This document shows, piece by piece, positions 7,192-63,275 of a stretch of DNA of 64,000 nt (position 1 is its first letter; each line of letters starts with the position of its first letter). The DNA comes from Cantharellus purpuraceus (Eukaryota > Basidiomycota > Agaricomycetes > Cantharellales > Hydnaceae): positions 494,501-558,500 of the forward strand of contig JALBUN010000015.1 of the NCBI GenBank assembly GCA_025174535.1, read 5' to 3'. The position numbers were made by a program, and so were the translations under genes. The notes beneath the pieces were generated by a model that was given only the letters and a program-made list of their open reading frames with translations, was not told where the DNA came from and did no database searches.

Positions 7192-7559
7192 TCCCTTACC
7201 CTCTGCATCTACTCTGACTCCATTCCCGACACTGCCATCCAAGCACTAATTGACTCCGGTTCTACTCACTGTTTCCTTGATTCCTCTTTTTCCAATTTAC
7301 ATAAACTCCATACATACACCATAACTCCAATATCACTCTGATTATTTGATGGCACTACTAATGCTGTTATTTCACGAGCTATAGATCTGTCTATCCATTT
7401 TTCTGTCAGAGAAATCCAGAACCTTACATTCTATGTTACTCCACTTGACTCCAGCTGTTCTGTGGTTCTCAGACATAATTGGCTCACCCGCTACAATCCA
7501 TTGATTGACTGGGCATTGGGCATTCCATTCCCCAGTACAGGCTGTGTCATTCTCGACGT
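7192..7559 (+). pseudogene. Gypsy aspartic protease (G3)
   Basis: Encodes the retropepsin-like start: IYSDSIPDTAIQALIDSGST followed by HCFLDSSFSN. The D-S-G of LIDSGST is the catalytic triad of the family. The frame is open to about 7341 and then broken. Later codons still give a recognisable RHNWLTRYNPLIDW segment near 7480-7515. The protease would have cut the gag-pol polyprotein. It is separated from gag by the L4 solo LTR and from RT by L5 copy a. Confidence 0.85.
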
Positions 7560-7973
7560 TGTTGGTTCGCTTAAGGAATAGATCCTATAAGTTTGCGCGC
7601 AACGGTCCTAGCAAACAGATGGTGTGTAACGCAGTTGTTCAGCACTCCAAAGATCAATCAGGTCGAGGGGTAGAGGTAGCACTGAGTAACAGGAAAGTGG
7701 AATAGTGCTCTGTGGTTGGATGAGGATGGGAGCAAAAGGTCGGTCCCGATGGCTGATTGTGCTCTGTGACTGGATGAGGATGGAGAGCCCGGTTGGGAGG
7801 TACGTGAAAGCTGGTTTCAGGAGAAGCGACCTCTCGGTGGCGGAGGGAAATCTGATCATTGAACCAAGGTGCTTTACCTCAGTGTAGAGCTGATGGATTG
7901 TGATGTAGAGCATAGAGTGTAGACTTAGAGCATGGGCTGAAAACTTGTTGATTGATTCCAAAGGCAAAAACTA

Positions 7974-7988
7974 GCGCCCTTTTATATA
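7974..7988 (-). promoter_or_regulatory. TATA box in L5
   Basis: TATATAAAAGGGCGC on the minus strand. The same motif is preserved at corresponding places in L5 copies at 36175, 51819 and 61858. Its position downstream of the L5 ORF fits the U3/R border of an LTR. Confidence 0.55.
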
Positions 7989-8324
7989 CAAATCCCCAGG
8001 GCACAACGACACAATATGAGGAGCAAATGATGCAATATGATGCAAGAAATGCTGATCAAGCCAGCTGACGAAGCGTGTGAAGTTGAACTACTAATGGGGA
8101 AATCATGGAGAAATGAAGCAACAGATAGGGGTAATCTTTGTAAGAATAGGAGGTGATGAGTAACAAAAGAACCAAAAATAGAACAAGGATGAGTAAGTCA
8201 TGTATGAATGAATTAAAAGATGAAACAGGGGTGAGTCATATAAAAGAACAATAGAAATGTCCACCAATACCATCTTCCTACAGCTCTGAAGGTAAATTGA
8301 CCCTGAGTCACATGAGGACTTCAG

Positions 8325-14071: not shown

Positions 14072-14943
14072 GAAGTCCCCAGTCGGACAACTTAAATTCA
14101 TATTTGAAATCTAATAATAATTACTCTGGTGATGGGTCTCCAAGGCCAATGGCCTTACATGAGTATGTCTGAGTCCAACAGGGATGGATGTCCGGGTTCC
14201 TATGACGCTTGTTCGGAATCATGTCAGTATACAATATTCGGATGTATATGAGATATACATCAGAATTTCAATGATACATAAAGCCAGGGAGTTACAATTT
14301 GGATATCTTAAAAGATTTCGGATGTGTGAAATTTTCATAAATATAAACATATATTCTATATTTTAATAAACTTTTAAAGATAAGACATTTGGTTGAGATG
14401 AACATAATTATTTACATGGATATAATAGGAATGTATGTATTAATATAATTGGTATTATATAGGGTATTTAGATATACAAATACCAGGTGGGGATTAAAGA
14501 TAGTTCAAATTATGTTACAAGTATTGTATAAGAAAGAATCAATGATATTTGGATGTTCCTTCAAGAGAGTTGCCACCACTAAATCAGGAAAAAAAGAATT
14601 ATTTTTGAGAATTATGCCAAAATATCAAAATATGTTTTAATCTAGTATATTGTGTAAAATTTGAGAATCATGTTGAAATATGAAAATAAGTTTGAATTGA
14701 AGTGTATTGTATAAAATTTGAGGAAAATAGGTTGTACATACGTATTTGTTGTATTTCTGAATAAGCGTCTATGGTGATGCTGATACATCAATTGGAACCG
14801 GAGACAGATGGGTGGAATCGGCGGTGACAATCAGAGAGGTAAATGGAGATGTGGCAGTTTCCAAATGGAGTATAGATTTCATATCCGCAGGGATCTGAGT
14901 GGATTGGACAGGGATCTGGGCATTAATGAATATAGTCATAACA
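14072..14943 (-). repeat. G4 3' LTR (L2 family), truncated and MITE-interrupted
   Basis: Plus-strand end ATATAGTCATAACA at 14943 matches the ends at 21644, 41930 and 63314. The other end (TGTTACGCAC side) is missing, replaced by the copia LTR end. The MITE at 14204-14769 interrupts it. The uninterrupted sequence is visible in the LTRs near 21470 and 61740. Confidence 0.88.
14204..14769 (+). mobile_element. MITE copy 1, TSD TAT
   Basis: 566 bp, AT-rich, non-coding, with imperfect terminal inverted repeats (GACGCTTGTTCGGAATCATG at left, the complement of GACGCTTATTCAGAAATAC at right). It is flanked by TAT at 14201-14203 and 14770-14772. The empty site GGTTCCTATGGTGATGC is seen at 61736 and 41752. 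A 3-bp TWA-type duplication is typical of PIF/Harbinger-type elements. Nearly identical to the copy at 42210. Confidence 0.93.
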
Positions 14944-23383: not shown

Positions 23384-24880
23384 CTAATAACTTGAACAGA
23401 CATTGCTATGGAGTTTAACAATGTGCCAGGGTTTGCAGGTTTGCAGCAATAACTGCAGCAACAGTTCAATCAGATGGATGCAAGGATTGATACACTGGAT
23501 ACACAGTTTGATGCACTAGCTATATGGTTTGATGCACTCCATGCTGCTAAGGGTTGAAAAAAACAGAGTTTAATAAATGTAACCAGAGTTAGTGCTAACA
23601 TGGAATGAGAGTAGACTTTACTGTTCCAGTTCAACTGGGGACAGAGAGGCTCTCATGCTATTGGGTCAGATTGAGTGGACTTGGCTTCAACTTATGTGTT
23701 GTGCCCCCTCAGATTGTCTGTCCAATATTTTAGAGTTTGGAGGTATGAAGTTGAATCAAAGATCCAGAGTTGACTTTGTTAAGAGGAGACTTGTCAAGAA
23801 GCTAGCAACCAGGAAGTTATGAGAGTCAAACTTAGTCAATATAAACTACTGTAATCATACAGAATATAGCCCATATAAGTATCTGAAGAATTGAATGAAA
23901 AACTAAAGTAGGGGAATAATAGAACAGATATGGAATATAAAATGGAAAGGAGTTCAGAGTTTAGACTTAAGTCTGAATTAATACTAAACAATATAACTAT
24001 TGTAACCCATATCAAGAGAATTACTTATCAAGGGAACAATAAGTGAAGTTTGAGGTTGTCAGAGATGGAGATGTCAGAGGTGGAGTAGAAGGAGATGGAG
24101 TTGGAGCCTGGAGATCAGACTTGGTGTTACAGGATATAACACATGCAATAAATCTCAACATCCAAATTGTGGCTTATAACCACAGTAACCTCAGCTATCC
24201 TCACCAGCCACTGTATAAATATGTAGGCCAGCCCACAAGTCATTCCACTCATGCTAACTTTTATATTTAGGTTGCTGGTGATGGCCATGCATTGGCAGCA
24301 CCCCTCACCCCTTCTACCTTGATGCAAGCAGTTCATACATATCATCCTCCAGCTTCTATCAGTGCTGTCCCATCCTAGTTTAACCCCAACATCAATAGCT
24401 ACAGTTACAGTGATATCCTTCAACTGATTATCTTTTACAATGATACCTTTGGTATCTATTCAGGAGATCACATTTTGGAAAGAAGGTGCAAGATACACAT
24501 GCACATTGCAAATGTATCTGCACACTAATTTTGCATGGTGACCCTTGGCAAACATCATGTATTCATTTCTAGATGAATGTCACTATAGACTTGAGACTTA
24601 TCTTTAGCAGAGCATGCTCCCTCACCAAGATGGTCTCACATCTCAACATCCATCTGATAAAAGAAAAAAGTTCATATAAGATACATCACATACAAAGACA
24701 CCTCTTCACCTCAGCAACTAACATTGCATTTGTAGTGTCACTGATATTGTACACACTTGAGGAGGAGGGTACATGATGGCTTGCACAAGCATGGTTGTTT
24801 GTCAGGTATTATAAGGCCAGCTGAGACACACAATTAAAATCACTGTCACTTTCAACTCTGCTAACTTGTAATGCTGCTAC
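23384..24880. other. Unassigned sequence with possible coiled-coil gene fragment
   Basis: At about 23409-23556 (plus) a frame reads MEFNNVPGFAGLQQ, stop, LQQQFNQMDARIDTLDTQFD, a heptad-like coiled coil of a kind found in small repeated basidiomycete hypothetical proteins. One stop and a later loss of frame suggest a relic. From 23830 to 24880 I see AT-rich sequence with no convincing gene. Confidence 0.35.
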
Positions 24881-25202
24881 CTTTACATCACCACCTTTGC
24901 ACCACCACCTTTGCACCACCACCTTTGCACCACCACCTTTGCACCACCACCTTTGCACCACCACCTTTGCACCACCACCTTTGCACCACCACCTTTGCAC
25001 CACCACCTTTGCACCACCACCTTTGCACCACCACCTTTGCACCACCACCTTTGCACCACCACCTTTGCACCACCACCTTTGCACCACCACCTTTGCACCA
25101 CCACCTTTGCACCACCACCTTTGCACCACCACCTTTGCACCACCACCTTTGCACCACCACCTTTGCACCACCACCTTTGCACCACCACCTTTGCACCACC
25201 AC
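24881..25202. repeat. 14-bp minisatellite, 23 units
   Basis: Perfect head-to-tail CTTTGCACCACCAC. The first unit (24881-24894) has two changes, and a degenerate unit follows at 25203. Because 14 is not a multiple of 3 and the unit has no stop on either strand, all six frames stay open. The long reading frames here are artefacts. The near-perfect uniformity indicates recent expansion. Confidence 0.96.
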
Positions 25203-25309
25203 CTTCTCACCTACACTCTTTCACCCTTCTATGCATTCACAAATATCATTTTTCTGTGACTGTTAATCTATGGATTTATCTGCATACACTCTCAAGAGGA
25301 TGCAAGGTG

Positions 25310-34486: not shown

Positions 34487-36174
34487 TGTATATCCAGTTG
34501 TTATGTCAGAGGTGTCCTTCGGGATCAAGTGACCATTTCAGATCAGAAGGGTCATCCAAGTGTTTAACTGCAACAGGATCAGATCAGGGTGATGAGCGGA
34601 TGTTGGAATGGAGTTGGTTGATATCCATAATGGTGACAGCTCGGAGGGTGGGAGTCATGAGGGTGGATGCCCATAGGGACAATGCCAGCTGCTCGTTAGT
34701 GAACACAGGACAAAAGTTGTGTGGGTTTACAGTGGCATAGTTGCTACTCCCCTCTTTGGGGTAGACATCCCAGCATCTAGTTAATGTGCCGGGCTTTGCT
34801 CCAAGTTGACCAGGATGGAAGCAGATAACAAGGTTGAACTGAGACAGGTATTTGGCCATCAGACTTGTCTCCAGGTGAGTAGTTTCATTGTGGAGAAGTA
34901 TTCCAAGTTCTTGTGGTCCGTTATGACATCCACCAGATCAGAGGGGCCTTTGAGGTAGTGTCTCCATATCCGGAAGGCTTCATATATGGCAAGGAGCTCT
35001 TTGTCATGGACATCATAGTTCAGTTTGGGGGGCATAAATGTACACGAGTGAAAAGCAATCAGGTGGACTTGTCCATCATCCGGAGAGATGATGGACAGGA
35101 TCGCAGCAAGTGCATAGTCCAAGGCATCGGTCTCTAATAGGATAGGAATGTCTGGAACCCAATGAGTCAGTATTGGAGTGGAAGTAAAGGCCTTTTTCAA
35201 GGTCTCAAAGCTCTGTCTACATTCATCAGTGGAATTCCATTGGGTACCCTTCCTAGTAAGTCGGGTGAGCAGAATGGTAATATTGGAGTAGTTGTAAATG
35301 AAGCAGCAGTAGAAGTTGGCGAACCCCAGGAAGGACTGTACATCTTTGACTTTCCACGGTTCTGGCCATTCCTATATGGCTTTGATTTTGTCATCAGACA
35401 TTGTCAGTCCTGCCGGGGAGAGGATATAGCTTAGATATTTGACTGAGTCGGAGTGGAATTCGCATTTGTCAGTGTGGGTGAAGAGGCCATGTTTTCAGAG
35501 ACATCAGAGTACTTCTTGGACATGTGTCTGATGTTCTTCTTCATTATCCAAATATACCAAAATATCATCTAAGTAAATGAGGATGGTAACATTGAGGAGG
35601 TCAGTGAAGGTATCGTTTATGAACCTCTGGAAGGCGGCCAGAGCATTGGTTAGTCTGAAGGGCATGACACACCATTCAAAAGATCCATATCAAGTGCAGA
35701 AAGTCGTTTTCCACTTGTTGCCTTCTCAGATGCAGACTAGATGGTAGGCATGTTGGAGATCTATTTTGGAATAGATCTTAGCCTTTCAAGGGCTCTTGAG
35801 TAGGTCCATGGTGCAGGGTATTGGGTATTGGTCTTTCTTAGTGATCTTGTTAAGTCCATGTAAGTCGACACATAGACAGAGTGATCCATCCTTTTTGCAG
35901 ACAAATAGGACCGGAGCTCCATGGGGGGATAAGGATGGGTGGATGAAGCCTGTGGCCAAGTTCTCTTCTATGAATGTTTGGAGACCCAGTAGCTCTTTTT
36001 GGGATAGTGAGTAGATAGGGCCAAGCAGAGGGGTGGAGTTGTCATCCAACTCAATCTTGAGATCGTATGGTTGGTGTTCCACTAGGGAGTCAGCTTTAGA
36101 CTTGCTGAACATGTCGGTGAACTTGTGATACTCCTTAGGAACCATAGATAGGTCCAGTGGAGTTGATCAGGTGG
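34487..36174 (-). pseudogene. Gypsy RNase H and RT (copy G5, first part)
   Basis: Minus strand. RT N-terminus at 35786-36145 ([16 protein letters not shown] to [14 protein letters not shown]). RT palm is near 35560 with a decayed YLDD. RNase H at 34859-35200 (LLETDALDYALAAILSIIS, HDKELLAIYEAF). The segment before integrase is at 34584-34859. Integrase and chromodomain are absent, replaced at 34486 by the L3 LTR. Upstream it is split from protease by L5 copy b. Confidence 0.87.
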
Positions 36175-37604
36175 TGTCGGTTCACTTATGGAATAGATCC
36201 TATAAGCCTGTGCGCAACGGTCCTAGCAAACAGACAGTGTGTAATGCAGTTGTTCAGCACGCCAAAGAACAATCATGTCGAGGGGTAGAGGTAGCACTGA
36301 GTAACAGGAAAGTGTAATAGTGCTCTGTGGTTGGAGGAGGATGGGGAGCAAAAAGGGACGGTCCAGATGGTTGATCATGCTCTGTGACTGGATGACAATG
36401 GGGAGCCCGGTTGGGAGGTATGCGAAAGCTGGTTTCAGGAGATGCGACCTCTGGGTGGCAGAGGGAAATCTGATTGTTGAACCAAGGTGCTTTACTTCAG
36501 TGTAGAGCTGATGGATTGTGATGTGGAGCGTAGAGTGTAGACTTAGAGCGTGGACTTTGACTTTAGAGCATTGGCTAAAAACTTGTTTCTTGATTCAAAA
36601 GGCAAAAACTAGCGCCCTTTTATATACAAATCCCCAGGGCACAATGACACAATATGAGGAGCAAATGATGCAATATGATGCAAGAAATGCTGATCAAGCC
36701 AGCTGACAAAGCATGTGAACTTGAACTACTAATGGGGAAATCATGGAGAAATGAAGCAACAGATAAGGGTAATCTTTGTAAGAATAGGAGGTGAGAGTAA
36801 TAAAAGAACCAAAAATAGAACAAGGATGAGTAAGTTGTGTATGAATGAATTAAAAGATGAAACAGGGGTGAGTCATATAAAAGAACAATAGAAACGTCCA
36901 CCAATACCATCTTCCCTATGGCTCTGAAGGTAAATCAACCCTGAGTCACATGAGGACTTCAGTCAGCATCCACAACAAATACTCCTTATTGTCTTAGTGA
37001 TACGTCTCCATATGGTATCCCATTCCAAGGGTATTTGGTCCCTTTGCCTGACACGATGTAACCTGAGTTGGATTGAAGTGGGAGGATAGGTTGGCGATGG
37101 CGACTGAAATTCTACCTCACATTCAACTCTTCTTTCCATGTTACGATATAGAGGCGAAATGCCGAGGAATGTAAATGGTTCAATGGAATTGTAAAAGAAT
37201 ATGGGATCGCCAATGGCATAAGAGAGACATGGTGGGGATCTTGGATGTTGAAAGAGTTTTGGAAGTATTTTGACATGTGGAGGTGGCTTAACATGCCCAT
37301 GGAGCTTGGCGTATTTTTGATAGTCCTCTGTGTCCAGAGACCAGTGTGACGTATTATTAGAAGAGATGTTGGAGAGGGGAATAGAATTGGAAGCCATGTG
37401 AATGATGATGAAAGGATTGGTGTGAATAGAAGGCTGATAATGATCGATGGCAATGAAACACAAGTGACGATTGAGGGCTAGAATTAGAGACTGAGGTGGA
37501 GAGGGAGTTGCGGCGCTATTTAAAAGTTTGATATGAAAAGACACTGGCGGAGTTGGACTGTCAGAGTGGTTCAATATATGTCCTCGATGCGTCCTGGCTC
37601 ATCA
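36175..37604 (-). mobile_element. L5 element copy b
   Basis: 1430 bp with ends TGTCGGTTCACTTATGG and CTGGCTCATCA, inserted in the gypsy protease-RT linker. The flanking 4-mers GTGG and GCAG differ by two transitions, so the duplication has decayed or is absent. It keeps the internal TATATAAAAGGGCGC box (minus, near 36625) and the 144-codon ORF. Confidence 0.8.
36963..37397 (-). CDS. Conserved 144-aa ORF inside L5 (copy b)
   Basis: Same protein as at 8325-8759: MASNSIPLSNISSNNTSHW at the N-terminus and RRITKTIRSICCGC at the C-terminus, with scattered substitutions and no frame break. The frame is also open upstream to 37574, but the Met at 37397 is preferred because a TATA-like TTTTAAATAGC lies in between. 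No family recognised. It could be an LTR-encoded accessory protein or a frame that is open by chance. Confidence 0.5.
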   Translation of the reverse strand: MASNSIPLSNISSNNTSHWSLDTEDYQKYAKLHGHVKPPPHVKILPKLFQHPRSPPCLSYAIGDPIFFYNSIEPFTFLGISPLYRNMERRVECEVEFQSPSPTYPPTSIQLRLHRVRQRDQIPLEWDTIWRRITKTIRSICCGC

Positions 37605-41930: not shown

Positions 41931-41931
41931 A

Positions 41932-42206
41932 TATAATAGGAATGTATGTATTAATATAATTGGTATTATAGGGTATTTAGATATACAAATATCAGGTGGG
42001 GATTAAAGATAGTTCAAATTATGTTACAAGCATTGTATAAGAAAGAATGAATGATATTTGGATAATCCCTCAATGGAGTTGCTGCCAGTAAATGGGGAAA
42101 AAGAATTATTTTTGAGAATCATGCCAAAATATCAAAATATGTTTTTAATCCACTATATTGTGTAAAATTTGAGAATCATGTCAAAATATGAAAATAAGGT
42201 TTAATC
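41932..42206 (+). repeat. Older MITE, left part (truncated)
   Basis: Matches the internal sequence of MITE copy 1 from ATATAATAGGAATGTATG on, with many differences. Its right end continues at 42776-42834 beyond the younger MITE and ends GAACAAGCATC. The left terminus is missing. Confidence 0.85.
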
Positions 42207-42209
42207 TAA

Positions 42210-42775
42210 GACGCTTGTTCGGAATCATGTCAGTATACAATATTCTGATGTATAGGAGATATACATCAGGATTTCAATGATACATAAAGCCAGGGAGTTA
42301 CAATTTGGATATCTTAAAAGATTTCGGATGTGTGAAATTTTCATAAATATAAACATATATTCTATATTTTAATAAACTTTAAAAGATGAGATATTTGGTT
42401 GAGATGAACATAATCATTTACATGGATATAATAGGAATGTCTGTATTAATATAATTGGTATTATATAGGGTATTTAGATATACAAATACCAGGTGGGGAT
42501 TAAAGATAGTTCAAATTATGTTACAAGTATTGTATAAGAAAGAATCAATGATATTTGGATGTTCCTTCAAGAGAGTTGCCACCACTAAATCAGGAAAAAA
42601 AGAATTATTTTTGAGAATTATGCCAAAATATCAAAATATGTTTTAATCTAGTATATTGTGTAAAATTTGAGAATCATGTTGAAATATGAAAATAAGTTTG
42701 AATTGAAGTGTATTGTATAAAATTTGAGGAAAATAGGTTGTACATACGTATTTGTTGTATTTCTGAATAAGCGTC
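42210..42775 (+). mobile_element. MITE copy 2, TSD TAA, nested in an older MITE
   Basis: 566 bp, nearly identical to 14204-14769, flanked by TAA at 42207-42209 and 42776-42778. The target lies inside an older member of the same family. Confidence 0.93.
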
Positions 42776-42834
42776 TAAGTGTATTGAGGAAAATAGGTTG
42801 TATATACATATTTGATGTATTTCTGAACAAGCAT
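42776..42834 (+). repeat. Older MITE, right end
   Basis: Continues the element at 41932-42206 after the nested insertion. It ends ATTTCTGAACAAGCATC, a two-change variant of the family terminus. Confidence 0.8.
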
Positions 42835-44644
42835 CTAAGTCACACCTTCATATCAATCATATTGATCCATCAAACCCATCCACAAGGCCACACAACACTT
42901 AAAAGATTTTATGAACTCACATACATTCACCCCTGTCAAAAGCACTGGCTCCTGATACTTCCTCTGCCTCCCATCAACCTCTACTCAACTTTGGACTGAG
43001 CAAGGTATACCACTTAAACCAAACCCATAACAGTCTGGAGGTCAGCCAAAGCAGGTTTTCAGTCAGAGATCTGCCAGTTGAAAAACTGTTTCAATGATGT
43101 GACCATATTAATGTTTATATATCTCTATGAAACCAGGACCAATGAGCATGATTCAAAAATATCTTAAAGATAAGATGCAATACTAATATACATTAATATT
43201 TTGGATATTTCATCAAATATATTTATTACATCATTGCATTATAAAGTCAAAACAAGCAAACATTGAAATAGCTTTCTAAATTACTATATATTGGGAGGTG
43301 TCTGTGAGTTTGGCATGGTCATAGCAACATGAAGCATGACATGTCAGTCACATTGTACTTACATTAAGATCAGATGGAGGGCTACATCTCCCACCTCTGC
43401 TCACACATCCTCTGATACTATTCACAACCACACTAAAAAGAGTGTTTGATTACAAGTCAAAAGGTATCTGATAATACTTAAAAACATCCAGCTCATGGCT
43501 GAATACCATGGCTCAGGATATTACCATGAATCTAAATTGTATCCCTTGGCTGGAATAAAATTGTAAGACTGAAGATTGGCACATGATGTGAAAGACAGCA
43601 AATTCCTGCGATAACAAGCTATTTCTAACTGAACCAAAAGGCCATTATGCCAGGTTACTGGTACAACTTGCAGACACTGTTTAAACAGCAACTTGCCACA
43701 TATTCACCAACTATTTGGAATAGTCTATGATAGTATTCCCCTCTTAGGTACCAAGCCCTTAAAGTACTACAGTGATGACATCTTAACAGGTTCTCCAGAC
43801 CTGTCTATGGCTTCTCCCAAGCACTCTAATTACTGTTTGACATAGCACAACATCATGTAAGCCAGGGTTCCTGGGGTCCAGGTGATTGCAATAACCTCTG
43901 CAAATTATTGCACACATGTGGATTTGAACCACTGACCTGGACAACCTGGCATACTGTAAAAGACAGCAAATTCCTGCAATAACAAGCTGTTTCCAACTGG
44001 ACCAAAAGGCCATTATGTCAGGTTACTTTGCAGACACTATTTAAACAGCAACTTGCCACATATTCACCAACCATTAGAATGGTATATGACACATGAAAAG
44101 AGCCACCTAAATGAATGGATGACAGCCTAGAGGCAGGGATGGTCCTTGTTATCAGTATAAATAGAGGTCTGACAATTGAAAAGAAGAGCATGGCATGGAA
44201 ATAGTGACTGATCGACTGCTTGAATAGCTTTGGAAGATGGATTGATGGAGGAAGCAGTGGCTTTGAGCTTTTCCAGCATACCATGTGCCTTGAGATCTAA
44301 AATCTTTAGAATCTATTGTCATTGATTGAAAAGGCACCCATCTGATCCAAATCTCACAACCAGCAGAAAATCTACGACTTCCAGTGGTAAGAGTAGCAGA
44401 TGGAGTAGAGTCACATCCTGGTAAGGAGAGTGAGAATGAAAGGTAAAAGCAAGAGAATGCATACTGCATGCTAGTCAAATAAGAGTTGTACAAATCTAGA
44501 ATACTCTCTCTATATCCACATGTGCACAAATAAAACTCTTTGGATGAGAAATGAAAGAAACTTGCAGTAGGCTTGATTACAAGATTAACATTCTCTCCAT
44601 AGGTCATAAGAGCCTTGAACAAATTATTATAATGCAGGTTGACC
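42835..44644. other. Unassigned AT-rich sequence with a direct repeat and a tRNA-like piece
   Basis: 43586-43727 and 43956-44083 are direct repeats (GACAGCAAATTCCTGCGATA versus GACAGCAAATTCCTGCAATA, and CAACTTGCCACATATTCACC in both). Between them, on the minus strand near 43915-43945, GTGGTTCAAATCCAC forms a tRNA T-arm-like hairpin with a box-B sequence, suggesting a decayed SINE. I find no box A at the right distance. No gene is recognised, and the open minus frame at 44152-44781 has no known motif. Confidence 0.4.
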
Positions 44645-46558: not shown

Positions 46559-46940
46559 TCATTGATCCATAATGCAGAGACTGTCTCTGAAGTTGCTTAG
46601 AGTACTCCATTCCACTCTATACCCAAGTTCAGACCTCCCTCTCTCATTAGAATCCCAAACATGCTGTGAGATATATATCCACCAGTGAGGATAAGAGAGG
46701 CAATTCCAAAGAAGGCCACACAGAGAACAATCAAACCATGACCTCTGCAAGAGGCAGCTGCAGTGTTTCAAGTTAAGATCTTACCAGTTTCTTTTAGTTT
46801 ATTGATAAAGAAAGGTCTTTTGTGAGGTTTTTCACAAGCATCTATTTGTAACACTGAAGCCAGAATCTAATCATGGACTGCTTTCTACCTTGAATTGAGT
46901 CTGGCAATTTTTTCAGTAGCAATTCAGCAGATGGATCATA
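46559..46940 (-). pseudogene. Helitron helicase fragment, second part
   Basis: Minus strand, continuing the Helitron frame from 54648 across the composite insertion. It starts YDPSAELLLKKLPDSIQ. After stops come a degenerate Walker A region (TGKILT) and NTAAASCRGHGLIVLCVAFF then GIASLILTGG, matching the PIF1-type helicase of Helitrons, which usually reads TVAASLRAQGKIVLAVASSGIAALLL. Multiple stops make it a relic. Confidence 0.75.
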
Positions 46941-47472
46941 GACGCTTGTTCAGAAATACAACAAATACGTATATACTCAATTCAAACTTATTTTCATATT
47001 TCAACATGATTCTCAAATTTTACACAATATACTAGATTAAAACATATTGTGATATTTTGGCATAATTCTCAAAAATAATTCTTTTTTCCCCATTTAGTGG
47101 TGGCAACTCTCTTGAAGGAACATCCAAATATCATTGATTCTTTCTTATACAATACTTATAACATAATTTGAACTATCTTTAATCCCCACCTGGTATTTGT
47201 ATATCTAAATACCCTATATAATACCAATTATATTAATACATACATTCCTATTATATCCATGTAAATGATTATGTTCATCTCAACCAAATATCTTATCTTT
47301 TAAAGTTTATTAAAATATAGAATATATGTTTATATTTATGAAAATTTCACACATCCGAAATCTTTTAAGATATCCAAATTGTAACTCCCTGGCTTTATGT
47401 ATCATTGAAATTCTGATGTATATCTCATATACATTAGAATATTGTATACTGACATGATTACGAACAAGCGTC
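46941..47472 (-). mobile_element. MITE copy 3 (left border of composite)
   Basis: 532 bp, same family as copies 1 and 2 in reverse. It lacks about 33 bp near its left end relative to copy 4. Its left flank is ATA and its right flank TAG, so it has no duplication of its own. Confidence 0.93.
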
Positions 47473-47551
47473 TAGGGAGGTCATTTTAAAAACAAAAATC
47501 ATCACCTTATATCATCAACAAGCTTCTTTCTCCATAGATTTAGACATGCCA

Positions 47552-48049
47552 TTATGAATTCTTATCTTCATTGGTATGTCTGGACACTGTCCAACACAGC
47601 AAAGCCAATAGTATACCAATACTAGTTATGTAGATCATGTGCACTGTACGGCCAAGATATAGTTTCTGCCTATTTATATCTGGGCCTGGCTGTCTAACAA
47701 ACGCCTGATTCACATGTGTGGTTATAATGTGTGCATATCCAGAGGTTGGATCAGAACCACTTACAAATCTGTTGGTTTTATTCAGAAAACCTGCAAATTC
47801 TGCTACAAAAATAGGATCACTTTCATTATAGCCTATTTTATCAGGTTGTAGACCAAGAAATACATATTTGATATGAGGATACTTTGAAAGCTGGAACACT
47901 TCACCTTCAGCATATGAACGGTCCAGATACTGCCCAAAGGGGTACCAGTCACACGTTGTACAATTAGCTAGCCGGTGTGGATTGCTGTGAAAAGGCTTTT
48001 GGTAAAACTGTTGATTGAGACGCTGTTTCAGTAATGGATCAGTCTCCAT
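47552..48049 (-). CDS. 165-aa protein with C-terminal membrane anchor, unknown
   Basis: Begins METDPLLKQRLNQQFYQKPF. It has a CTTCDWYPFGQYL segment near residue 32, a soluble middle (YPHIKYVFLGLQPDKIG), and one strongly hydrophobic helix near residues 135-155 (MIYITSIGILLALLCWTV) followed by a short charged tail, so it looks tail-anchored. No family recognised. It lies about 180 bp downstream of the transposase on the same strand and 80 bp inside the left MITE. The frame is uninterrupted, unlike almost everything else nearby. Confidence 0.6.
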   Translation of the reverse strand: METDPLLKQRLNQQFYQKPFHSNPHRLANCTTCDWYPFGQYLDRSYAEGEVFQLSKYPHIKYVFLGLQPDKIGYNESDPIFVAEFAGFLNKTNRFVSGSDPTSGYAHIITTHVNQAFVRQPGPDINRQKLYLGRTVHMIYITSIGILLALLCWTVSRHTNEDKNS

Positions 48050-48232
48050 AGATACCTATAAGTATAAAACATACAAATATTCAATTTTATTCTGGGAAAA
48101 AAAATTTACAGTTGAATGTAGCATAGGTATACAATAATATTATTACTATTGTCTTTCCAATACTCTTTAATACATTCTGTAGATTTAAAGCTTGATGTTG
48201 CTTCCCAAGTTTTCTCTGCATAACATTTCCAT

Positions 48233-49578
48233 TTAACTAAATATTCTACGTACTTTCCTTTTTCTTTGCCTTATTATTTGTTCTACTTCATTTTCAGTCT
48301 CATAATGCATCTCCACATCATACTCACATCTTTCTAATAGTCGTTGTTGAGATTGAGTCATCTTGTCAACATCTTCTGCTCTTTCCAGTAATGATCTGGG
48401 TGGCTCAATATCTGGGTCCTCTTCCTCAGGGTAATCAAAATATTGTTCACACCATTTTTCATGATAAGGGGATGGTTTGATCTTACGTAGTTCTACAAAT
48501 TTCTTAATATTCCATAATAGACATGCTACCTTTAATTCCAGATTAAAGACAGCAGGATTTGTAGTTCTAATAGATCTCTTATTATCAAATTTTTCAAACA
48601 ATCTTGCAAACCCTCCAAAGAATGCTTCTACTGTTGAACGAAAGGCACCAAACTTCTTATTAAAAATCTTTTCTTCAGGTTTAAGTTCAACATTTTTGGC
48701 TTCCGAAAAGGATAAAAGAAGTTCTTAGGCTTTAATATACTTGCCTTTACTACTTCTGGAATAGCAGATGGATAAGCTCCATCAAAGCCTATCTGATCAT
48801 TCTTATCTATTTTATTCCATACAGCCATCTCTACAAACATTTTTGCATCAGGATTTAGTTTACATGCCAATGAAGGTGAGGTGAATAGAACCATTTGATT
48901 AATGTCAATGCATACTTGAGTACGAAATCCTGCCTTTTAAATTTATATGAGTACCCCTCTTCAGATGCCGATCCAATCAAAATTCCTCTTGTATCATGAC
49001 CATCAAGAAGTAATGTCACTGATTCCATTTTTGGAGGATTCTTTATAAGAGCTGATAATATCCTTATTATTATATTTGAGAACATTGTACGCAGTGAATC
49101 AGTAACTTGTTTATCTAGATCAAAGTTAAGATGATGCAGACGACCATAAAATTCCTTATGAACATCATAAAAGCTACTTGATGGCATGAAATTTCCTATT
49201 TCTTCATAAGTAGGACCTTTGAGTAGATGATATAGTACTAACAAGCCTTTTTCTATCTCTCTATAAGGTGTAGAATGTTCTTCAACTGAAAACAATACCA
49301 CAAGAAAGAAAAATACTGGTATTGGTCCAAGCTTGTTATATACTACTTTTTTACATCATCCATATCATTCATATCTTTTAGTTTTGTTCTATGATATTTT
49401 TGTGTTCTAAGACAGGCCACTTTGTGTATAGAAAATTCCAATGATTGTCCATCAACTTATTATATGCTCTGTCCCTTTGATCATTCCACATTTTAAGTTG
49501 CTGAAGCTCTTTTTCTTCTTTCTCTTTTTGCTCTTTCTCTTTTTGCTCCTTTGTGCGTTTTTGCTGGTCTGAGGGCAT
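48233..49578 (-). CDS. DDE_Tnp_4-like transposase, frame broken at four homopolymers
   Basis: N-terminus is a Lys/Glu coiled coil (MPSDQQKRTKEQKEKEQKEK), then DRAYNKLMDNHWNFLYTKWP and a helical region (REIEKGLLVLYHLLKGPTYE). The catalytic residues are in TLLLDGHDTRG (first D), QIGFDGAYPSAIP (second D) and STVEAFFGGFARLF (E), the order and surroundings of DDE_Tnp_4 transposases. The C-terminus is acidic then basic (RQRKRKVRRIFS). The frame changes near 49398, 49350, 48937 and 48702. Each is explained by one missing base in an A or T run, and with those four bases the total is exactly 450 codons. It could be a relic or an intact gene with sequencing errors. Confidence 0.72.
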
Positions 49579-49673
49579 TTTGACTAAGATACTCTTATAT
49601 TACAGTAAAACAAAAATATGTTCATTTTTTGATAATTGAATTTTAAATTAAATAATATTTATTCTATGAAGCT

Positions 49674-50324
49674 ATGTTGTCTGTCTCTAAGCAAGTTGTT
49701 CGTAAAATATCTACTGTCTTTGTTAAAAAAGAACCAGAGGATGATGAAAATCCTTTGTATATAGACTCTGACACCATCTACATAAAATTCAGATTAAGAA
49801 ATCCCCCAAAGGACTTCTTTCCAGCTGGATCGGTTTCTCAGGAAAGAGATAAAACACCAGAAGCACTGTACAATAAGATGATTGAAAAGGGCAATGAAAT
49901 AAGTAATTCAACCTGGATTCAACAAAATCATTGTATGTCAAGTCTGCAAACCATGCAACAGGATAATCTGCCTAGTTGTAATATTTCTATTGCTAGAGAA
50001 ACTGGCAAGAAGTGTGATATTTCTATTGCTGGGGAAACTTGTAAGAACTGTGATGTGTATAACAATTTGGTTACATCAATGGTTGTTGCATTGAAACAAC
50101 AGCAGAGAGTTTTCAAGAAAAGTAAAATCACAATCTATGGTATGATCATAACTAAGGATGGTAGGTTAAAATTATATGAAACCACCAATAACAATCAGGG
50201 TGTTTCAATTGTTGTATATCCTTCCTCTGGATACAGCATAGAAGCTCAGTTTGAAGAGTGTTCTAATGCTATTGACATTATATTCCAAAGTATAAGAAAT
50301 CAGATGTTCAAAGAATCCTCATAA
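49674..50324 (+). CDS. 216-aa protein, unknown
   Basis: Begins MLSVSKQVVRKISTVFVKKE. VKKEPEDDE matches a SUMO-attachment consensus. The middle has a short internal duplication (CNISIARETGKKC and CDISIAGETCKNC). The C-terminal half looks globular with beta strands (KITIYGMIITKDGRLKLYE). No family recognised. It is divergently arranged with the transposase (96 bp between starts) and ends 19 bp from the next gene on the opposite strand. The frame is uninterrupted. Confidence 0.6.
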   Translation: MLSVSKQVVRKISTVFVKKEPEDDENPLYIDSDTIYIKFRLRNPPKDFFPAGSVSQERDKTPEALYNKMIEKGNEISNSTWIQQNHCMSSLQTMQQDNLPSCNISIARETGKKCDISIAGETCKNCDVYNNLVTSMVVALKQQQRVFKKSKITIYGMIITKDGRLKLYETTNNNQGVSIVVYPSSGYSIEAQFEECSNAIDIIFQSIRNQMFKESS

Positions 50325-50342
50325 GGAGTTGATTTAAAAGTC

Positions 50343-50597
50343 CTAGTTTCTACACTCACAACATTTTTCATCTATTTTCACTTGGATAATTTCAAGATTT
50401 GAACTTTTGTTCACACAACAATAAGTACCATTAGTATCATGATGAGTATTTTTGAATGTTCAGAGCTCTTAGGACATTTAATATCCTTACAATCTGTAAC
50501 TACAGATGTAGTAGTTATATGATTGCACTTCCAAGTAATTTGAATTTTTTCACTATCACCACACATGCCTTCATTTGAGTGAATAAAAATATTGCAT
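50343..50597 (-). CDS. Small cysteine-rich protein, about 84 aa, unknown
   Basis: Minus-strand frame reads SNEGMCGDSEKIQITWKCNH, then VVTDCKDIKCPKSSEHSK, shifts at an A run near 50450, and continues THHDTNGTYCCVNKSSNLEI to a C-terminal KCCECRN. There are about nine cysteines. The shift is repaired by one added A. The start is uncertain: an ATG at 50597 needs one T fewer in a T run to be in frame. No family recognised. The cysteine spacing suggests a disulphide-rich or metal-binding small protein. It is too broken to appear as a long simple ORF. Confidence 0.4.
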
Positions 50598-50617
50598 ATT
50601 CACTTATCTGATTTATC

Positions 50618-50797
50618 TTATACTTGTTGTAGTGCACGTAGTGGTAGCTGAATCTCATTGTCATCATAAGTAACAGTTATTAGCAAAGTGTCATCTGACA
50701 AAGTGCCAGTTACTAATGTAACAATACCTGTCACTGTCATTTGTGTTCTTGCATTGATAAATGATACCTTATCACCAATCTCGGGTATATTCAACAT
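50618..50797 (-). CDS. 59-aa beta-rich protein, unknown
   Basis: MLNIPEIGDKVSFINARTQM at the start and IQLPLRALQQV at the end, with alternating hydrophobic beta-strand patterns (TVTGIVTLVTGTL, LLITVTYDD). The GDKVSF start and strand pattern resemble a small SH3-like barrel, an inference only. It lies 21 bp upstream of the Cys-rich gene and 39 bp downstream of the 81-aa gene, all on the minus strand. Confidence 0.45.
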   Translation of the reverse strand: MLNIPEIGDKVSFINARTQMTVTGIVTLVTGTLSDDTLLITVTYDDNEIQLPLRALQQV

Positions 50798-50835
50798 GGT
50801 GTCTCTGGTTATTATATATTAATTTTCAAAACTCA

Positions 50836-51081
50836 TTATTTCTCATCTAATTTCCTATCAAGTATATCTACAAACTTCTTAAATGCTTCAAAACACTGTA
50901 GAACATTCTTTCTACTATTAATATGTTTCATACCTGTTACTGTTAAAGGGAAACAACACCTTACATTTGTTATCACTTCTGAAAACAACCCTTCTGTGAT
51001 AGCATGATCAAGCTCTCTTGTAACAGTTACTAGGTAAAACTGGGGGACTTTTCTCGATGTTTGAATGCAAGGTATTGTCAT
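50836..51081 (-). CDS. 81-aa protein, unknown
   Basis: Begins MTIPCIQTSRKVPQFYLVTV and ends FKKFVDILDRKLDEK. Predicted strands in the first half and an amphipathic helix at the end. No known motif. The frame is open and neighbours are very close on both sides, as in a compact gene cluster. Confidence 0.45.
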   Translation of the reverse strand: MTIPCIQTSRKVPQFYLVTVTRELDHAITEGLFSEVITNVRCCFPLTVTGMKHINSRKNVLQCFEAFKKFVDILDRKLDEK

Positions 51082-51158
51082 TTCCTCTAAAGCACTTTTT
51101 CCCTTATTCTTCCTTATCTAAGTATGTAAAAATTTTCTTGAAGACTCCTTTAAACATT

Positions 51159-51326
51159 TCACATCATCTTTTTGTAATCAAAACTGAGGATCTCATCATC
51201 AGTATCTAAAGTAATATCTCTAAAATCTGTCTCAAAAAACTGTTTAGTCCATTGTGTGTCAACCATTATACCATAATCCCAAAGATCATGAGAACTCCAA
51301 TCATTGCACTTCTTATCTTTACCCAT
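51159..51326 (-). CDS. 55-aa acidic protein, unknown
   Basis: MGKDKKCNDWSSHDLWDYGI at the start, then aromatic and acidic residues (QFFETDFRDITLDTDDEILS). Intact frame, 78 bp upstream of the 81-aa gene on the same strand. No motif recognised. At this length chance cannot be excluded, and the evidence is mainly its place in the cluster. Confidence 0.35.
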   Translation of the reverse strand: MGKDKKCNDWSSHDLWDYGIMVDTQWTKQFFETDFRDITLDTDDEILSFDYKKMM

Positions 51327-51818
51327 GATGTCAATAAAGAAGGATATATAAAATTTATTTACTAGATATGTGCATAGTTCTGAAGAGCAGAATGTCCATA
51401 TTTTTATCTAATATTTATAAATTGAATTATATATATTTTCTAAAGTTGTCAATAGCCAGATGCATGCACTCGTTCTGAATACTACAACAAAGTCCCATAC
51501 AGAATTCCCTGTCCTTTCATCTATCATTCTTCTACCAGTTCCTTGTTTCCTATCTTGCCAGTCTTTCATTCCAAATTCTTTGCTGCATAGCTAAATAGGT
51601 GTACCAGCCGATTGGATATTATCATATCATGGTAATGACGTCGGATGGAAGGTCACCTTGTCAGGAGCAGTTTGATCACATTATCAAAGGACAGCCTTTT
51701 GGCTGTGAGGGTTGATAATGATGCACTTACTGAGCAGACAGTAGGTGAGACTTTGCAGCGGCATGGTGTACCAGATAATTGAATCGTTGTCCTTGAGCAG
51801 CCCGATGATGTCACTCGG
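51327..51818. other. Non-coding AT-rich sequence, then a short foreign-looking fragment
   Basis: 51327-51600 shows no gene. 51705-51818 (plus) reads VRVDNDALTEQTVGETLQRH then GVPDN, a stop, and IVVLEQPDDVTR. This stretch is less AT-rich than its surroundings and ends exactly at the L5 fragment, so it may be the remains of sequence carried in with it. I do not recognise it. Confidence 0.35.
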
Positions 51819-52380
51819 TGTCGGTTCGCTTATGGAATAGATCCTATAAGCCTGCGTGCAATGGTCCTAGCAAGCAGACGGTGTGTAACGCAGTTGTTCA
51901 GCACTCCAAAGATCAATCAGGGCGAGGGGTACGTAACAGGGAAGTGGGATAGTGCTCTGTGGTTGGATGAGGATGGGAGCAAAAGGTCGGTCCCGATGGC
52001 TGATCGTGCTCTGTGACTGGATGACAATGCGGAGCCCGGTTGGGAGGTACGCGAAAGCTGGTTTCAGGAGAAGCAACCTCTCGGTGGCGGAGGGAAATCT
52101 GATCGTTGAACCAAGGTGTTTTACCTCAGTGTAGAGATGATGGATTGTGATGTAGAGTGTAGACTTAGAGCTTGGACTTTGACTTTAGAGCGCCGGCTGA
52201 AAACTTGTTTTTTGATTCCAAAGGCGAAAACTAGCGCCCTTTTATATACAAATTCCCAGGGCACAACGACACAATATGAGGAGCAAATGATGCAAGAAAT
52301 GCTGATCAAGCCAGCTGACAAAGCGTGTGAAGTTGAGCTACTAAAGGGGAAATCATGGAGAAATGAAACGACAGATAGGG
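51819..52380 (-). mobile_element. L5 fragment inside the composite unit
   Basis: Begins TGTCGGTTCGCTTATGG and matches the first 560 bp of L5 copies, including the TATA region, then stops abruptly at GACAGATAGGG. The L5 ORF is missing. It shows that basidiomycete retroelement sequence was added to the cargo. Confidence 0.85.
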
Positions 52381-52453
52381 ACATCATTAGACTGCTCATG
52401 GACAGCCATTCACTCCAAGGTGACCTTGTATCCTACGTCTTTGGAGGCTTACA

Positions 52454-53548
52454 TTACTGGGTTCTCCCTCTACATCTTTTTCTTGAACTAGTAATTTGAG
52501 ATTGATCAGAGTCTGAATCAGATTGATCAGAGTCTGAATCAGATCGTTCCTTAGACCTTTTTTCTTGATGCCTTGAACTAGGAGTTTGAGATCGTTCCTT
52601 AGACCTTTTTTCTTGATGCCTTGAACCTTGAGTCATTCCTTGCTTCCATGTTTGAAAATTAATCCTATTACCATCTACGTCATATGATGACATTTCATTC
52701 TTCCTAGTATATATTGTAGATAGTTTTCTAGGCTCACCATTTATGAATAATTCCATTCTATTTAGTCTACAAGACTGATCTGAGTCTATAAGTATATAAT
52801 CTACACCTCTTTTCACTATCTTAAATGTCACCTTTCTGGTACCATTTTCCTGTAACCTTGTTACCTCCTGTTCTTGTTTTCCAGCCCAGTGATTCATATC
52901 AAATTTCCAGTCAACAATCTCAGATATTATTGCTTTATATTTATCACCCTGTTTCTGAAGTTTATTAATGTCTGTTCCAAGTTCCACTACAGTATCATCT
53001 GTTTCTACAATCCACTCATGCACTTCAGATTTCCATTCCACAATGTCTGATATTGTTGCAATACATCTATTAACCTGTTTCTGAAGTTTATGAATATCTG
53101 TTCTATGGTCCAATATAAGATTCTCTGCATTATGTGTATTGACCTGTTGATGAATATCTGTTCCATGGTCTGATATTGTGGCAACACACCTATTAACCTG
53201 TCTCTGAAGTTTATGAATATCTGTTCCAAATCCTGATACAATATCATTCATTTCACTCATCCATTCATCTAAATTCTCTTTCCTGTCTGTCAAAGTAGTT
53301 ATAATTGTATTTTTTTCCTCAACCTGTTTCTTAAGCACCTGAATTTCCTGACTCTGGGAATTAACCTGTTGTTCAAGTATAGTGATCTGCCTATCCTTTT
53401 CACTCATCCAAGACTTGACATTTATAAGATCAGATATTAATTCATCTTTTACTTCCATTTGACTTGCCATAGCTTTTATCAGTGCATCATTGTCACTTAT
53501 CCAGCCTTTGATTGCTTTTATATCTTCAAAGATTTGTGACATTTTCAA
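52454..53548 (-). CDS. 364-aa coiled-coil protein with SD/RS-rich tail, unknown
   Basis: Begins MKMSQIFEDIKAIKGWISDN. Residues about 1-225 are a repetitive coiled coil with recurring GTDIHKLQxQVNRCxATISD and W-K-S-E units. Residues about 230-305 form a globular segment (KVTFKIVKRGVDYILIDSDQ). The C-terminus has tandem RHQEKRSKERS and SDSDQS repeats and ends KRCRGRTQ. The layout (long repeated stalk, small domain, charged tail) could suit a structural or fibre-like protein or a nuclear scaffold. No family recognised. The uninterrupted 364-codon frame is the longest in the cargo. Divergent from the spliced gene at 53690. Confidence 0.65.
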   Translation of the reverse strand: MKMSQIFEDIKAIKGWISDNDALIKAMASQMEVKDELISDLINVKSWMSEKDRQITILEQQVNSQSQEIQVLKKQVEEKNTIITTLTDRKENLDEWMSEMNDIVSGFGTDIHKLQRQVNRCVATISDHGTDIHQQVNTHNAENLILDHRTDIHKLQKQVNRCIATISDIVEWKSEVHEWIVETDDTVVELGTDINKLQKQGDKYKAIISEIVDWKFDMNHWAGKQEQEVTRLQENGTRKVTFKIVKRGVDYILIDSDQSCRLNRMELFINGEPRKLSTIYTRKNEMSSYDVDGNRINFQTWKQGMTQGSRHQEKRSKERSQTPSSRHQEKRSKERSDSDSDQSDSDSDQSQITSSRKRCRGRTQ

Positions 53549-53689
53549 ATCCCTCTCTGCTTATAAAACAGAAATGAAAAAACATAATAATCATTTTTTT
53601 CTGAACATTTGATATTTTGTATAGGCAGTAGATATATACATCTTGCTTTCTTAATAAAATGATTATTATGTTTTTATGTTATAAGCATT

Positions 53690-54016
53690 ATGAAGATGCT
53701 CTCTTTTATGCTTCAATGCAAGATAGAGTTTGATAGAAGAGTTAATGATTGGTATATATCTCGGATAGGATCCCTCCATGATTTGTTTCTGAGGTAAGTT
53801 CCTTTATAAATATCAAGGTTCCAATCACTGACTTTATACAGATGTACTGATGGCACACTTCTGGAACAGAAATTAACAGAGTTATATACTAGTATGGAGC
53901 AGGATCATTATTTTCCACCACTTTGGATGGAAAATCTGATGGTATTGCACCCTAAAGTACGAGGGATAGTCATACAGTCTCATGTTAGAACAAGATTATC
54001 TACCACTATGCCCTAA
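53690..54016 (+). CDS. 92-aa two-exon gene, unknown
   Basis: Exon 1 is 53690-53793 and exon 2 is 53842-54016. The 48-bp intron has GTAAGT at its start, CACTGAC as a plausible branch site and ACAG at its end, typical of fungal introns. Splicing gives 279 bp, 92 residues plus stop, from MKMLSFMLQCKIEFDRRVND to RTRLSTTMP. Without splicing the frame stops one codon into the intron. No motif recognised. It ends 66 bp from the right MITE and is divergent from the coiled-coil gene (141 bp between starts). Confidence 0.6.
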
Positions 54017-54082
54017 CTAAGTTACTTTGTTTTAAAAATAGCTTCACTGCATTAAAGGTGTTTGTTTCCAAGACTTTCCTAA

Positions 54083-54647
54083 GACGCTTGTTCAGAAATA
54101 CAACAAATACGTATATACAACCTATTTTCCTCAAATTTTATACAATACACTTCAATTCAAACTTATTTTCATATTTCAACATGATTCTCAAATTTTACAC
54201 AATATACTAGATTAAAACATATTGTGATATTTTGGCATAATTCTCAAAAATAATTCTTTTTTCCCTATTTAGTGGTGGCAACTCTCTTGAAGGAACATCC
54301 AAATATCATTGATTCTTTCTTATACAATACTTATAACATAATTTGAACTATCTTTAATCCCCACCTGGTATTTGTATATCTAAATACCCTATATAATACC
54401 AATTATATTAATACATACATTCCTATTATATCCATGTAAATGATTATGTTCATCTCAACCAAATATCTTATCTTTTAAAGTTTATTAAAATATAGAATAT
54501 ATGTTTATATTTATGAAAATTTCACACATCCGAAATCTTTTAAGATATCCAAATTGTAACTCCCTGGCTTTATGTATCATTGAAATTCTGATGTATATCT
54601 CATATACATTAGAATATTGTATACTGACATGATTCCGAACAAGCGTC
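54083..54647 (-). mobile_element. MITE copy 4 (right border of composite)
   Basis: 565 bp, same orientation as copy 3. Left flank TAA (inside the composite), right flank ATA, which matches the left flank of copy 3. Confidence 0.93.
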
Positions 54648-54960
54648 ATAGTCCATCTGCTCAGCCACAAACTAATTAATTTCCAATCATTTCCTCCCAG
54701 CTATCTGTCACCTGAGGCATGTCTCTAACTGATCCAGAGATTTTCCAGCATAGCTCAGGAGATTGTCTATGAGAAAGAGGCTAAAGTTATACACCTGATC
54801 ATCCTCTGGACTCCATTTGTGATATTTGGTCTGAAGAAGATGCTTGAGATCATTACAAATCAAATGCTTGAAGAGGTTCCAAAGTTTTCTTGGATCAAAA
54901 GAAAAACAGAAGGCCAGGATAAATGTGAATAGTCTTTTTAGTTGAGAACCAATTGCACCT
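54648..54960 (-). pseudogene. Helitron helicase-region fragment, first part
   Basis: Minus strand: QLKRLFTFILAFCFSFDPRK then LWNLFKHLICNDLKHLLQTK, EDDQVYNFSLFLIDNLLSYA, GKSLDQLE. This is the segment between Rep and the PIF1 helicase in Helitrons (usual form LWxxFKxHICDDL...VYDYGLYLIDxIL...GKSLxDFP). After 54700 it continues past a stop to AEQMD, interrupted there by the composite unit, and resumes at 46940. Its upstream end is fused to Tc1 sequence. Confidence 0.75.
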
Positions 54961-61390: not shown

Positions 61391-61857
61391 ATCCTATGTT
61401 ACACACTAGGTCCAATTAGGGGTCGGAGATTGGGTCGGAGGTTTGGTCGGAGTCGGAGAAGGAGTCAGGTATGTCATGGGGGTTGGAATGGACTTGGCTT
61501 CAGCTTATGTGCTGCGCCCTCACTAATACCGGTGTCTGAGATTTCGGAGATGGAGTACAACTTAGAGAGTTAGGATCGGACTTAGGAACTAGGTGTGATT
61601 TGATATTCAAACGGGAATGAAGTCCCCAGTCGGGCAGCTTAAATTGAAATCTAATAATAATTACTCCGGTGATGGGTCTCCGAGGCTGAAGGCCTTACAT
61701 GAGTATGTCCAAGTCCGACAGGGACAGATGTCCGGGTTCCTATGGTGATGCTGATGCATCAATTGGAACTGGAGACAGATCGGCAGGGGGGTGGTGACAA
61801 TCGGACAGGTAATGGAGACGTGGCGGTTTCCAAATGGAGTATAGATTTCATATGCGC

Positions 61858-63275
61858 TGTCGGTTCACTTAAGGAATAGATCCTATAAGCCTGCACGCAA
61901 TGGTCCTAGCAAACAGACAGTGTGTAATGCAGTTGTTCAGCACTCCAAAGATCAATCAGGTTGAGGGGTAGAGGTAGCACTGAGTAACAGGAAAGTGGAA
62001 TAGTGCTCTGTGGTTGGATGAGGATGGGAGCAAAAGGTCAGTCCCGATGGCTGATCATGCTCTGTGACTGGATGAGGATGGAGAGCCCAGTTGGGAGGTA
62101 TGTGAAAGCTGGTTTCAAGAGAAGTGACCTCTCGGTGGAGGAGGGAAATCTGATCATTGAACCAAGGTGCTTTACCTCAGTGTAGAGCTGATGGATTGTG
62201 ATGTAGAGCGTAGAGCGTAGACTTAGAGCGTGGACTTTGACTTTAGAGCATGGGCTGAAAACTTGTTGATTGATTCCAAAGGCAAAAACTAGCGCCCTTT
62301 TATATACAAATCCCCAGGGCACAACGACACAATATGAGGAGCAAATGATGCAATATGATGCAAGAAATGCTGATCAAGCCAGCTGATCAAGCGTGTGAAG
62401 TTGAACTACTAATGGGGAAATCATGGAGAAATGAAGCAACAGATAGGGGTAATCTTTGTAAGAATAGGAGGTGATGAGTAATAAAAGAACCAAAAATAGA
62501 ACAAGGATGAGTAAGTCGTGTATGAATGAATTAAAAGATGAAACAGGGGTGAGTCATATAAAAGAACAATAGAAACGTCCACCAATACCATCTTCCATAC
62601 GGCTCTGAAGGTAAATTGACCCTGAGTCACATGAGGACTTCAGTCAGCATCCACAACAAATACTCCTTATTGTCTTAGTGATCTGTCTCCATATGGTATC
62701 CTGTTCCAAGGGTATTTGGTCCCTTTGCCTGACACGATGTAACCTGAGTCGGATTGAATGGAAGGATAGGTCGGCGATGGCGACTGAAATTCTACCTCAC
62801 ATTCGACTCGTCTATCCATGTTACGATATAGAGGTGAAATGCCGAGGAATGTATATGGTTCAACAGAATTGTGAAAGAATATGGGATTGCCAATGGCATA
62901 AGAGAGACATGGTGGGGATCTTGGATGTTGAAAGAGTTTTGGAAGTATTTTGACATGTGGAGGTGGCTTAACATGTCCGTGGAGCTCAGTGTATTTTTGA
63001 TAGTCCTCTGTGTCCAGAGACCAGTGTGACGTATTATTAGAAGAGATGTTGGAGAGGGGAATAGAATTGGAAGCCATGTGAATGATGATGAAAGGATTGG
63101 TGGGCTGATAATGATTGATGGCGATGAAACACGAGTGACAATCAATGGCTAGAATTAGAGACTGAGGTAGAGAGGGAGTTGCGACGCTATTTAAAAATTT
63201 GATACGAAAAGGCGCTGGTGGAGTTGGACTGTCAGAGTGGTTCGATATACGTCCTCGATGCATCCTGGCTCATCA
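61858..63275 (-). mobile_element. L5 element copy c, TSD GCGC
   Basis: 1418 bp, TGTCGGTTCACTTAAGG to CTGGCTCATCA, with GCGC at 61854-61857 and 63276-63279. The interrupted L2 sequence (CATATGCG next to CAGGGATCTGG) is continuous at 14880. Together with copy a (ACGT) it supports a 4-bp duplication. Confidence 0.85.
62667..63077 (-). pseudogene. L5 ORF, copy c, frameshifted
   Basis: Same start MASNSIPLSNISSNNTSHW (Met at 63077). Identical layout through CEVEFQSPSPTYPS, then a small deletion near 62757 changes the frame so the end reads IPYGDRSLRQ instead of the conserved RSICCGC. The other two copies keep the original end. Confidence 0.55.

Follow-up and report, generated by a model that had tools for sequence, protein, structure and literature searches.

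KolobokP elements, described from seven animal phyla, are DNA transposons in which an internal region with a Kolobok transposase lies between long terminal direct repeats that have inverted ends of their own (11–18 bp), an architecture that their authors regarded as unlike that of any other DNA transposon (Kojima and Bao, 2022, PMC9587614). Oyster families measure 4.0–4.7 kb, and most families encode a His-Me finger nuclease while some apparently lack it. Is such a design confined to animals and to Kolobok transposases? In a stretch of 64,000 nucleotides from the fungus Cantharellus purpuraceus (assembly GCA_025174535.1, contig JALBUN010000015.1, positions 494,501 to 558,500; called the window) we find a block of 7.7 kb with the same layout, an internal region with a predicted transposase gene between two same-orientation long terminal direct repeats (LTDRs) with inverted ends (Table 1). 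It is near certain that this block moved as one unit and represents a single copy of a repetitive DNA transposon, and the design, so far described in animals, is probably paired here with a different transposase type, in a fungus. As in KolobokP, there are solo repeats and multimers of the form (repeat-internal)n-repeat, in KolobokP usually with outer-end duplications, and termini of the type RR..YY; in the window the repeats read GA...TC, that is 5'-RR and YY-3', with the inverted termini GACGCTTGTTC/GAACAAGCGTC. In contrast to what is described there, the block is 7.7 kb long and its transposase is of the DDE_Tnp_4 type, the C/DxxH motif of Kolobok being missing in 22 of 24 aligned members and a chromodomain being present in 15 of 24, with no nuclease match.

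The PHIS elements (PIF/Harbinger-ISL2EU-Spy), the NuwaII group above all, share with the block a DDE transposase and a 3-bp duplication of the target, whereas long direct terminal repeats are absent from the described passages of that work (Han et al., 2015, PMC4482050). IS26 translocatable units and pseudo-composite transposons resemble it in having direct repeats around cargo and in forming tandem arrays, and a one-repeat circular unit is known there, whereas here a circle is only proposed (PMC7986276, PMC11102541). In maize Ac/Ds macrotransposons the outer ends of two elements mobilise the intervening DNA (PMC9910405). In the open-licence literature the name KolobokP occurred in that one paper, the papers listed held no other DNA transposon of KolobokP-like design, and no paper was found that brings together Harbinger elements, composite transposons, miniature inverted-repeat transposable elements (MITEs) and fungi, although Repbase or literature elsewhere may hold one. 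IS26 is bacterial and its transposase is located inside the flanking element, whereas here it sits between the repeats; Ac/Ds macrotransposons are separate elements acting together, whereas here a stable high-copy family is seen. The likeness to a bacterial composite transposon drawn in a preliminary description of this DNA is upheld.

What indicates that the block moved as a whole? The preliminary description had reported ATA at the outer ends of the two repeats only, and direct flank reading confirms it (left ...CATA, right ATAG...; inner flanks TAG and TAA). A single ATA match could be chance, and the significance comes from agreement across the family. Of about 58 copies in the assembly (40.15 Mb, 50 contigs, given as C-numbers; part of the genome was read, and repeats were mostly sampled by similarity to those of the window), 24 full loci were taken, and both outer flanks could be read at 23, the right end of C1:2366797 not being found. 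The 3-bp outer flanks agree at 19 of the 23, while 100,000 shuffles of the right flanks gave 5.4 matches on average and never more than 13, bearing out the earlier claim of movement through the outer ends. The matching triplets are TTA (nine), TAA (three), ATA and TAT (two each), TTT, AAA and TTG. The inner triplets, by contrast with the outer ones, hardly vary: TAG follows the left repeat at 23 of 24 loci (19 directly, four with the variant TAGGGGGG; one was not parsed), and TAA precedes the right repeat at all 23 read. Moreover, an ungapped empty site was found for 14 of the 23 loci; C1:3226856 was dropped as it had matched its own flank, leaving 13, all among the 19. The clearest is that of C24:168840, which matches window positions 49506–49552 at 100% with a single TTG and, lying within element sequence, indicates that one element inserted into another. 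The search for empty sites proposed earlier was thus productive for the family, and for the window copy none was found in the genome sequence examined. The region around C24 166000–178600 (approximate) holds a full element nested in a mosaic host element: on its left side the host is of a diverged type, with 65% transposase identity, and on its right side it shares 98% identity with the internal region of the window copy.

The proposed genome search showed the block to be multi-copy. Thirteen places, the window included, match the whole internal region at 97–100% identity, and others match large parts of it. The pattern of the repeat's 5' end occurs at 615 places (reversed-pattern control, 0), and junction patterns gave 59 left and 61 right junctions, the left match at C1:574400 being doubtful with three mismatches. 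Same-orientation right junctions pair with 55 of the 59 left junctions, 53 of them at 5,976–7,266 bp and two farther away. Roughly 500 repeats would be solo (615 minus about 116, an approximate figure since the patterns differ in the mismatches allowed). Repeats with an internal region on both sides, as in tandem arrays, occur at C38:12109, C44:11176, C44:18353 and C45:1750348; the two-unit array on C45, the one multimer whose outer flanks were read on either side, is bounded by TTA left and right. Each other aside, the window's repeats are nearest to those of C38 and C44.

The internal region encodes what, by Pfam domain match, is assigned as a PIF/Harbinger-like DDE_Tnp_4 transposase. A 374-residue open stretch in the C17 copy (L109) retrieves 58 relatives, the named ones from the fungi Apophysomyces, Rhizomucor, Mortierella, Actinomortierella and Thamnidium. 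Every member of a 24-sequence alignment has the catalytic D, D and E; DDE_Tnp_4 is matched in 23 members at E 0.001 or better and Chromo in 15, while the C/DxxH pattern, at spacings of 50–56 residues, occurs in two members and not in the element's own protein. Among the 34 genome matches that span the query, 31 are free of stops. A search of solved structures yielded nothing with the single protein, and with the alignment the matches listed were to chromodomains. The predicted structure (mean pLDDT, the predicted local distance difference test score, 83.4) gave no Foldseek match at E 0.001; via a second-look structural alignment it appears to resemble RNase H-type transposases and integrases. 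The internal frames scanned with Pfam, which are broken, gave no match to a nuclease of the His-Me finger (His-Cys box) kind, and three other internal frames gave none to a Myb/SANT domain.

Is the enzyme that moved the blocks also the one that moved the solo repeats? Flanks were readable at 27 distinct solos, and 24 of these carry a 3-bp duplication; both inner triplets, TAG and TAA, also occur as solo duplications. Taking full and solo insertions together, 43 duplicated sites have C before the triplet in 29 cases, G after it in 29 and both in 20, with a TNA triplet in 26; that full and solo insertions share this signature fits one enzyme for both. NuwaII has the same C before and G after the duplication (C-TNA-G) and a terminal inverted repeat beginning with G (PMC4482050), and duplication length and base preference fit that group of PHIS. 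Differences from PHIS are the missing Myb/SANT match and the 17 of 43 duplications that are not TNA, where the passages on PHIS give TWA, or C-TNA-G for NuwaII. At repeat position 8, G is found in 50 of 61 solos and A in the other 11, whereas 29 of 39 element repeats have A (Fisher p 2e-8; counts from 100 of the 615 repeat places), indicating that solos did not arise at random from the full copies now present. The idea that they are mere by-products of these copies is disfavoured by this allele; older full copies could be their source.

The two repeats of one element are strikingly alike. At the 22 of 24 loci compared (the left repeat of C24:125167 was not parsed and the right one of C1:2366797 not found), they differ by a median of one position and nine pairs are identical, while the median between elements is 12. 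Across 31 polymorphic columns left and right disagree in 26 cells, where independence of the two would predict 225.7. The left-right distances add up to 82, of which 33 come from the gap in the window copy, compared with 295.7 on average and never less than 191 after shuffling. No column among those listed separates left from right repeats. Near-identical ends are the pattern of long terminal repeat (LTR) retrotransposons and are unexpected here. Left-right distance rises with distance from the window (Spearman 0.69, p 0.014, 12 of the 22 pairs), a test carried largely by three elements, among them a likely recombinant and a damaged one; this hints at ends that may be alike at insertion and diverge afterwards.

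How could such an element move and keep its ends alike? As a whole we favour, with fairly high confidence, a transposon with LTDRs that is moved by its own DDE transposase and draws its ends from a single repeat. The internally encoded PIF/Harbinger-like transposase would cut each of the two LTDRs at its outer end, the whole block would be pasted with a 3-bp duplication, and the same transposase would move single LTDRs as MITE-like elements; we infer that it is the active enzyme for blocks and solos. We lean slightly towards each new block taking both ends from one repeat, most likely via an amplifying unit with one repeat, which would be a tandem array or a circle of LTDR plus internal region. 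Such a unit would jointly explain the alike ends, the arrays and the constant inner junctions. A replicative, cointegrate-like insertion is conceivable. The more far-reaching proposal of a DDE transposon in which every insertion renews both long ends from one repeat, by way of a circle or concatemer with a single repeat and possibly replicatively, with a PIF/Harbinger origin separate from KolobokP, is speculative and rather unlikely; if true, the element would mimic an LTR element although no reverse transcription is involved.

Several observations weigh against this account. 1) The element's own protein scores 21.6 bits for DDE_Tnp_4, below the Pfam cut-off of 24.8 (E 1.8e-4), the window's transposase gene is split across several frames, and the remaining 61 of 95 genome match rows are pieces or diverged, many copies matching piecewise only. 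2) Four of the 23 loci have no simple 3-bp match: C17:49920, C1:457528, C1:1095702 and C26:126570, the last of which is damaged at its right end and shows a CTCG match in a shifted position. 3) The repeats of C1:457528, C8 and C26 differ at 7, 8 and 14 positions, the left repeat of C1:3226856 equals that of C1:3849311, and the right repeat of C47 is closer to C1:567234 than to its own left one. 4) The Spearman link uses distance from the window, not insertion age. 5) In the 2.3 kb read near the expected place, no right LTDR was found for a diverged element on C35, and an exact pattern search found no internal-internal junctions, as excision of a repeat would leave. The stretch C1:457528–464194 is likely chimeric, having left and right repeats of different lineages and outer triplets TAA/TAT. 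The crossed triplets of C17:49920 and C1:457528 raised the idea of a reciprocal exchange between the two loci, which their repeat lineages do not bear out.

The serious rival, to which we give a real though minority chance, is that the block moved by plain cut-and-paste and that gene conversion or unequal exchange homogenised its repeats later. Recombination is possible between direct repeats spaced by about 7 kb and would be expected to yield arrays and solos, and C1:457528 is likely a recombinant; yet the elements farthest from the window retain 7–14 left-right differences, which argues that conversion has not kept old pairs identical, a point carried by three elements, of which one is likely recombinant and one damaged. 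Very unlikely is that a circle of one repeat plus internal region recombines homologously into an existing solo, making block transposition unneeded. This route, one of the options put forward for KolobokP (PMC9587614), would account for the constant inner junctions and the arrays, but nine identical pairs out of 22 would require resident solos nearly identical to the repeat on the circle, and the position-8 allele is mostly G in solos as against A in element repeats.

The preliminary description had seen two independent MITEs that captured unrelated cargo and moved as a macrotransposon, which we regard as highly improbable and reject as the present state. Solos with duplications of their own, and the use of TAG and TAA as solo duplications, suggest that such a capture may have founded the family long ago. 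What speaks against it now is a constant internal region carrying a transposase gene, in about 58 copies with identical inner junctions, near-identical repeats within each element with no separate left and right lineages, and a left repeat-internal junction that is kept in diverged relatives. These relatives, with 62–66% transposase identity, lie on C23, C24 and C35. On C35 a repeat matched piecewise at 72–82% is followed by TAGGGAGATC, and on C23 (L118, G000:C23:1092000-1094300) a 76% repeat with an insertion in it is followed by TAGGGTGATC. The C23 repeat type constitutes a second repeat subfamily, about 76% identical to the main one, with at least 40 copies at 96–100% identity to the C23 repeat (40 of 676 candidates were scored). 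A non-autonomous LTR retroelement of the large retrotransposon derivative type would share the direct repeats with near-identical ends and the solos, and has next to no probability given ends that are GA..TC and not TG..CA, 3-bp duplications, an internal transposase gene and no reverse transcriptase by Pfam in the five internal frames scanned.

As to the insertion site of the window copy, the preliminary description held that joining the outer flanks with one ATA restores a Helitron frame. The joined flanks indeed give an open stretch of 39 residues on the minus strand, FVAEQMDYDPSAELLLKKLPD..., which includes AEQMDYDPSAEL, and at L113 (G000:C49:1927580) homologues of both flanks are collinear, 1 bp apart, with DNA identities of 82.8% and 84.2%. 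This collinearity supports the view that both outer flanks are parts of one putative Helitron-like gene. The name is tentative: the 119-residue right-flank piece has no Pfam match, and Helitron is what we take L113 to be from the motifs it contains. Since the very point of insertion is missing from L113, this locus cannot serve as an exact empty site for the window copy. The joined target (46928–46940 plus 54651–54663) forms a palindrome whose 10-bp arms match perfectly around a 6-bp loop, only the window site having been examined for this.

Table 1. Features of the block and its immediate flanks, in window positions.
Feature	Position	Strand	Basis
Left target-site duplication copy (ATA)	46938–46940		Flank reading
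Left LTDR, 532 bp (33 bp missing), 11-bp inverted ends	46941–47472	+	
Internal region, starts TAG, ends TAA	47473–54082		
Open frame, 167 residues, no Pfam match	47552–48055	-	
Putative chromodomain-like stretch (chromodomain C-terminal in relatives)	48150–48270	-	
DDE_Tnp_4-type transposase gene, spread over several frames in the window copy	48233–49590	-	
Open frame, 222 residues, diverges from the transposase, no significant Pfam match	49656–50324	+	
Fragment of another repeat within the internal region	51816–52380		Repeat comparison
Open frame, 368 residues, weak coiled-coil Pfam matches	52454–53560	-	
Right LTDR, 565 bp, 11-bp inverted ends	54083–54647	+	
Right target-site duplication copy (ATA)	54648–54650		Flank reading

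The 368-residue frame has no homologues at E 0.001. The repeat fragment in the internal region recurs in the window at 7557–8130, 36173–36769 and 61855–62448 with 87–88% identity. Two more solo LTDRs lie on the minus strand, at 14203–14770 with an ATA duplication and at 42210–42776 with a TTA duplication, the latter seemingly nested in an older repeat copy (pieces 41931–42205 and 42784–42836). The window also holds a copia-like frame, best matched at 77% by a protein from a metagenome, and, at 24809–25266, a tandem repeat that yields long overlapping frames on both strands.

What does the element mean for this type of transposon? Its existence points to more than one origin of the long-terminal-direct-repeat design among eukaryotic DNA transposons, and to a design that may do without a homing endonuclease. 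The near-identical ends make it testable how a two-repeat structure is kept or regenerated, and high copy number together with high similarity makes this a practical model family.
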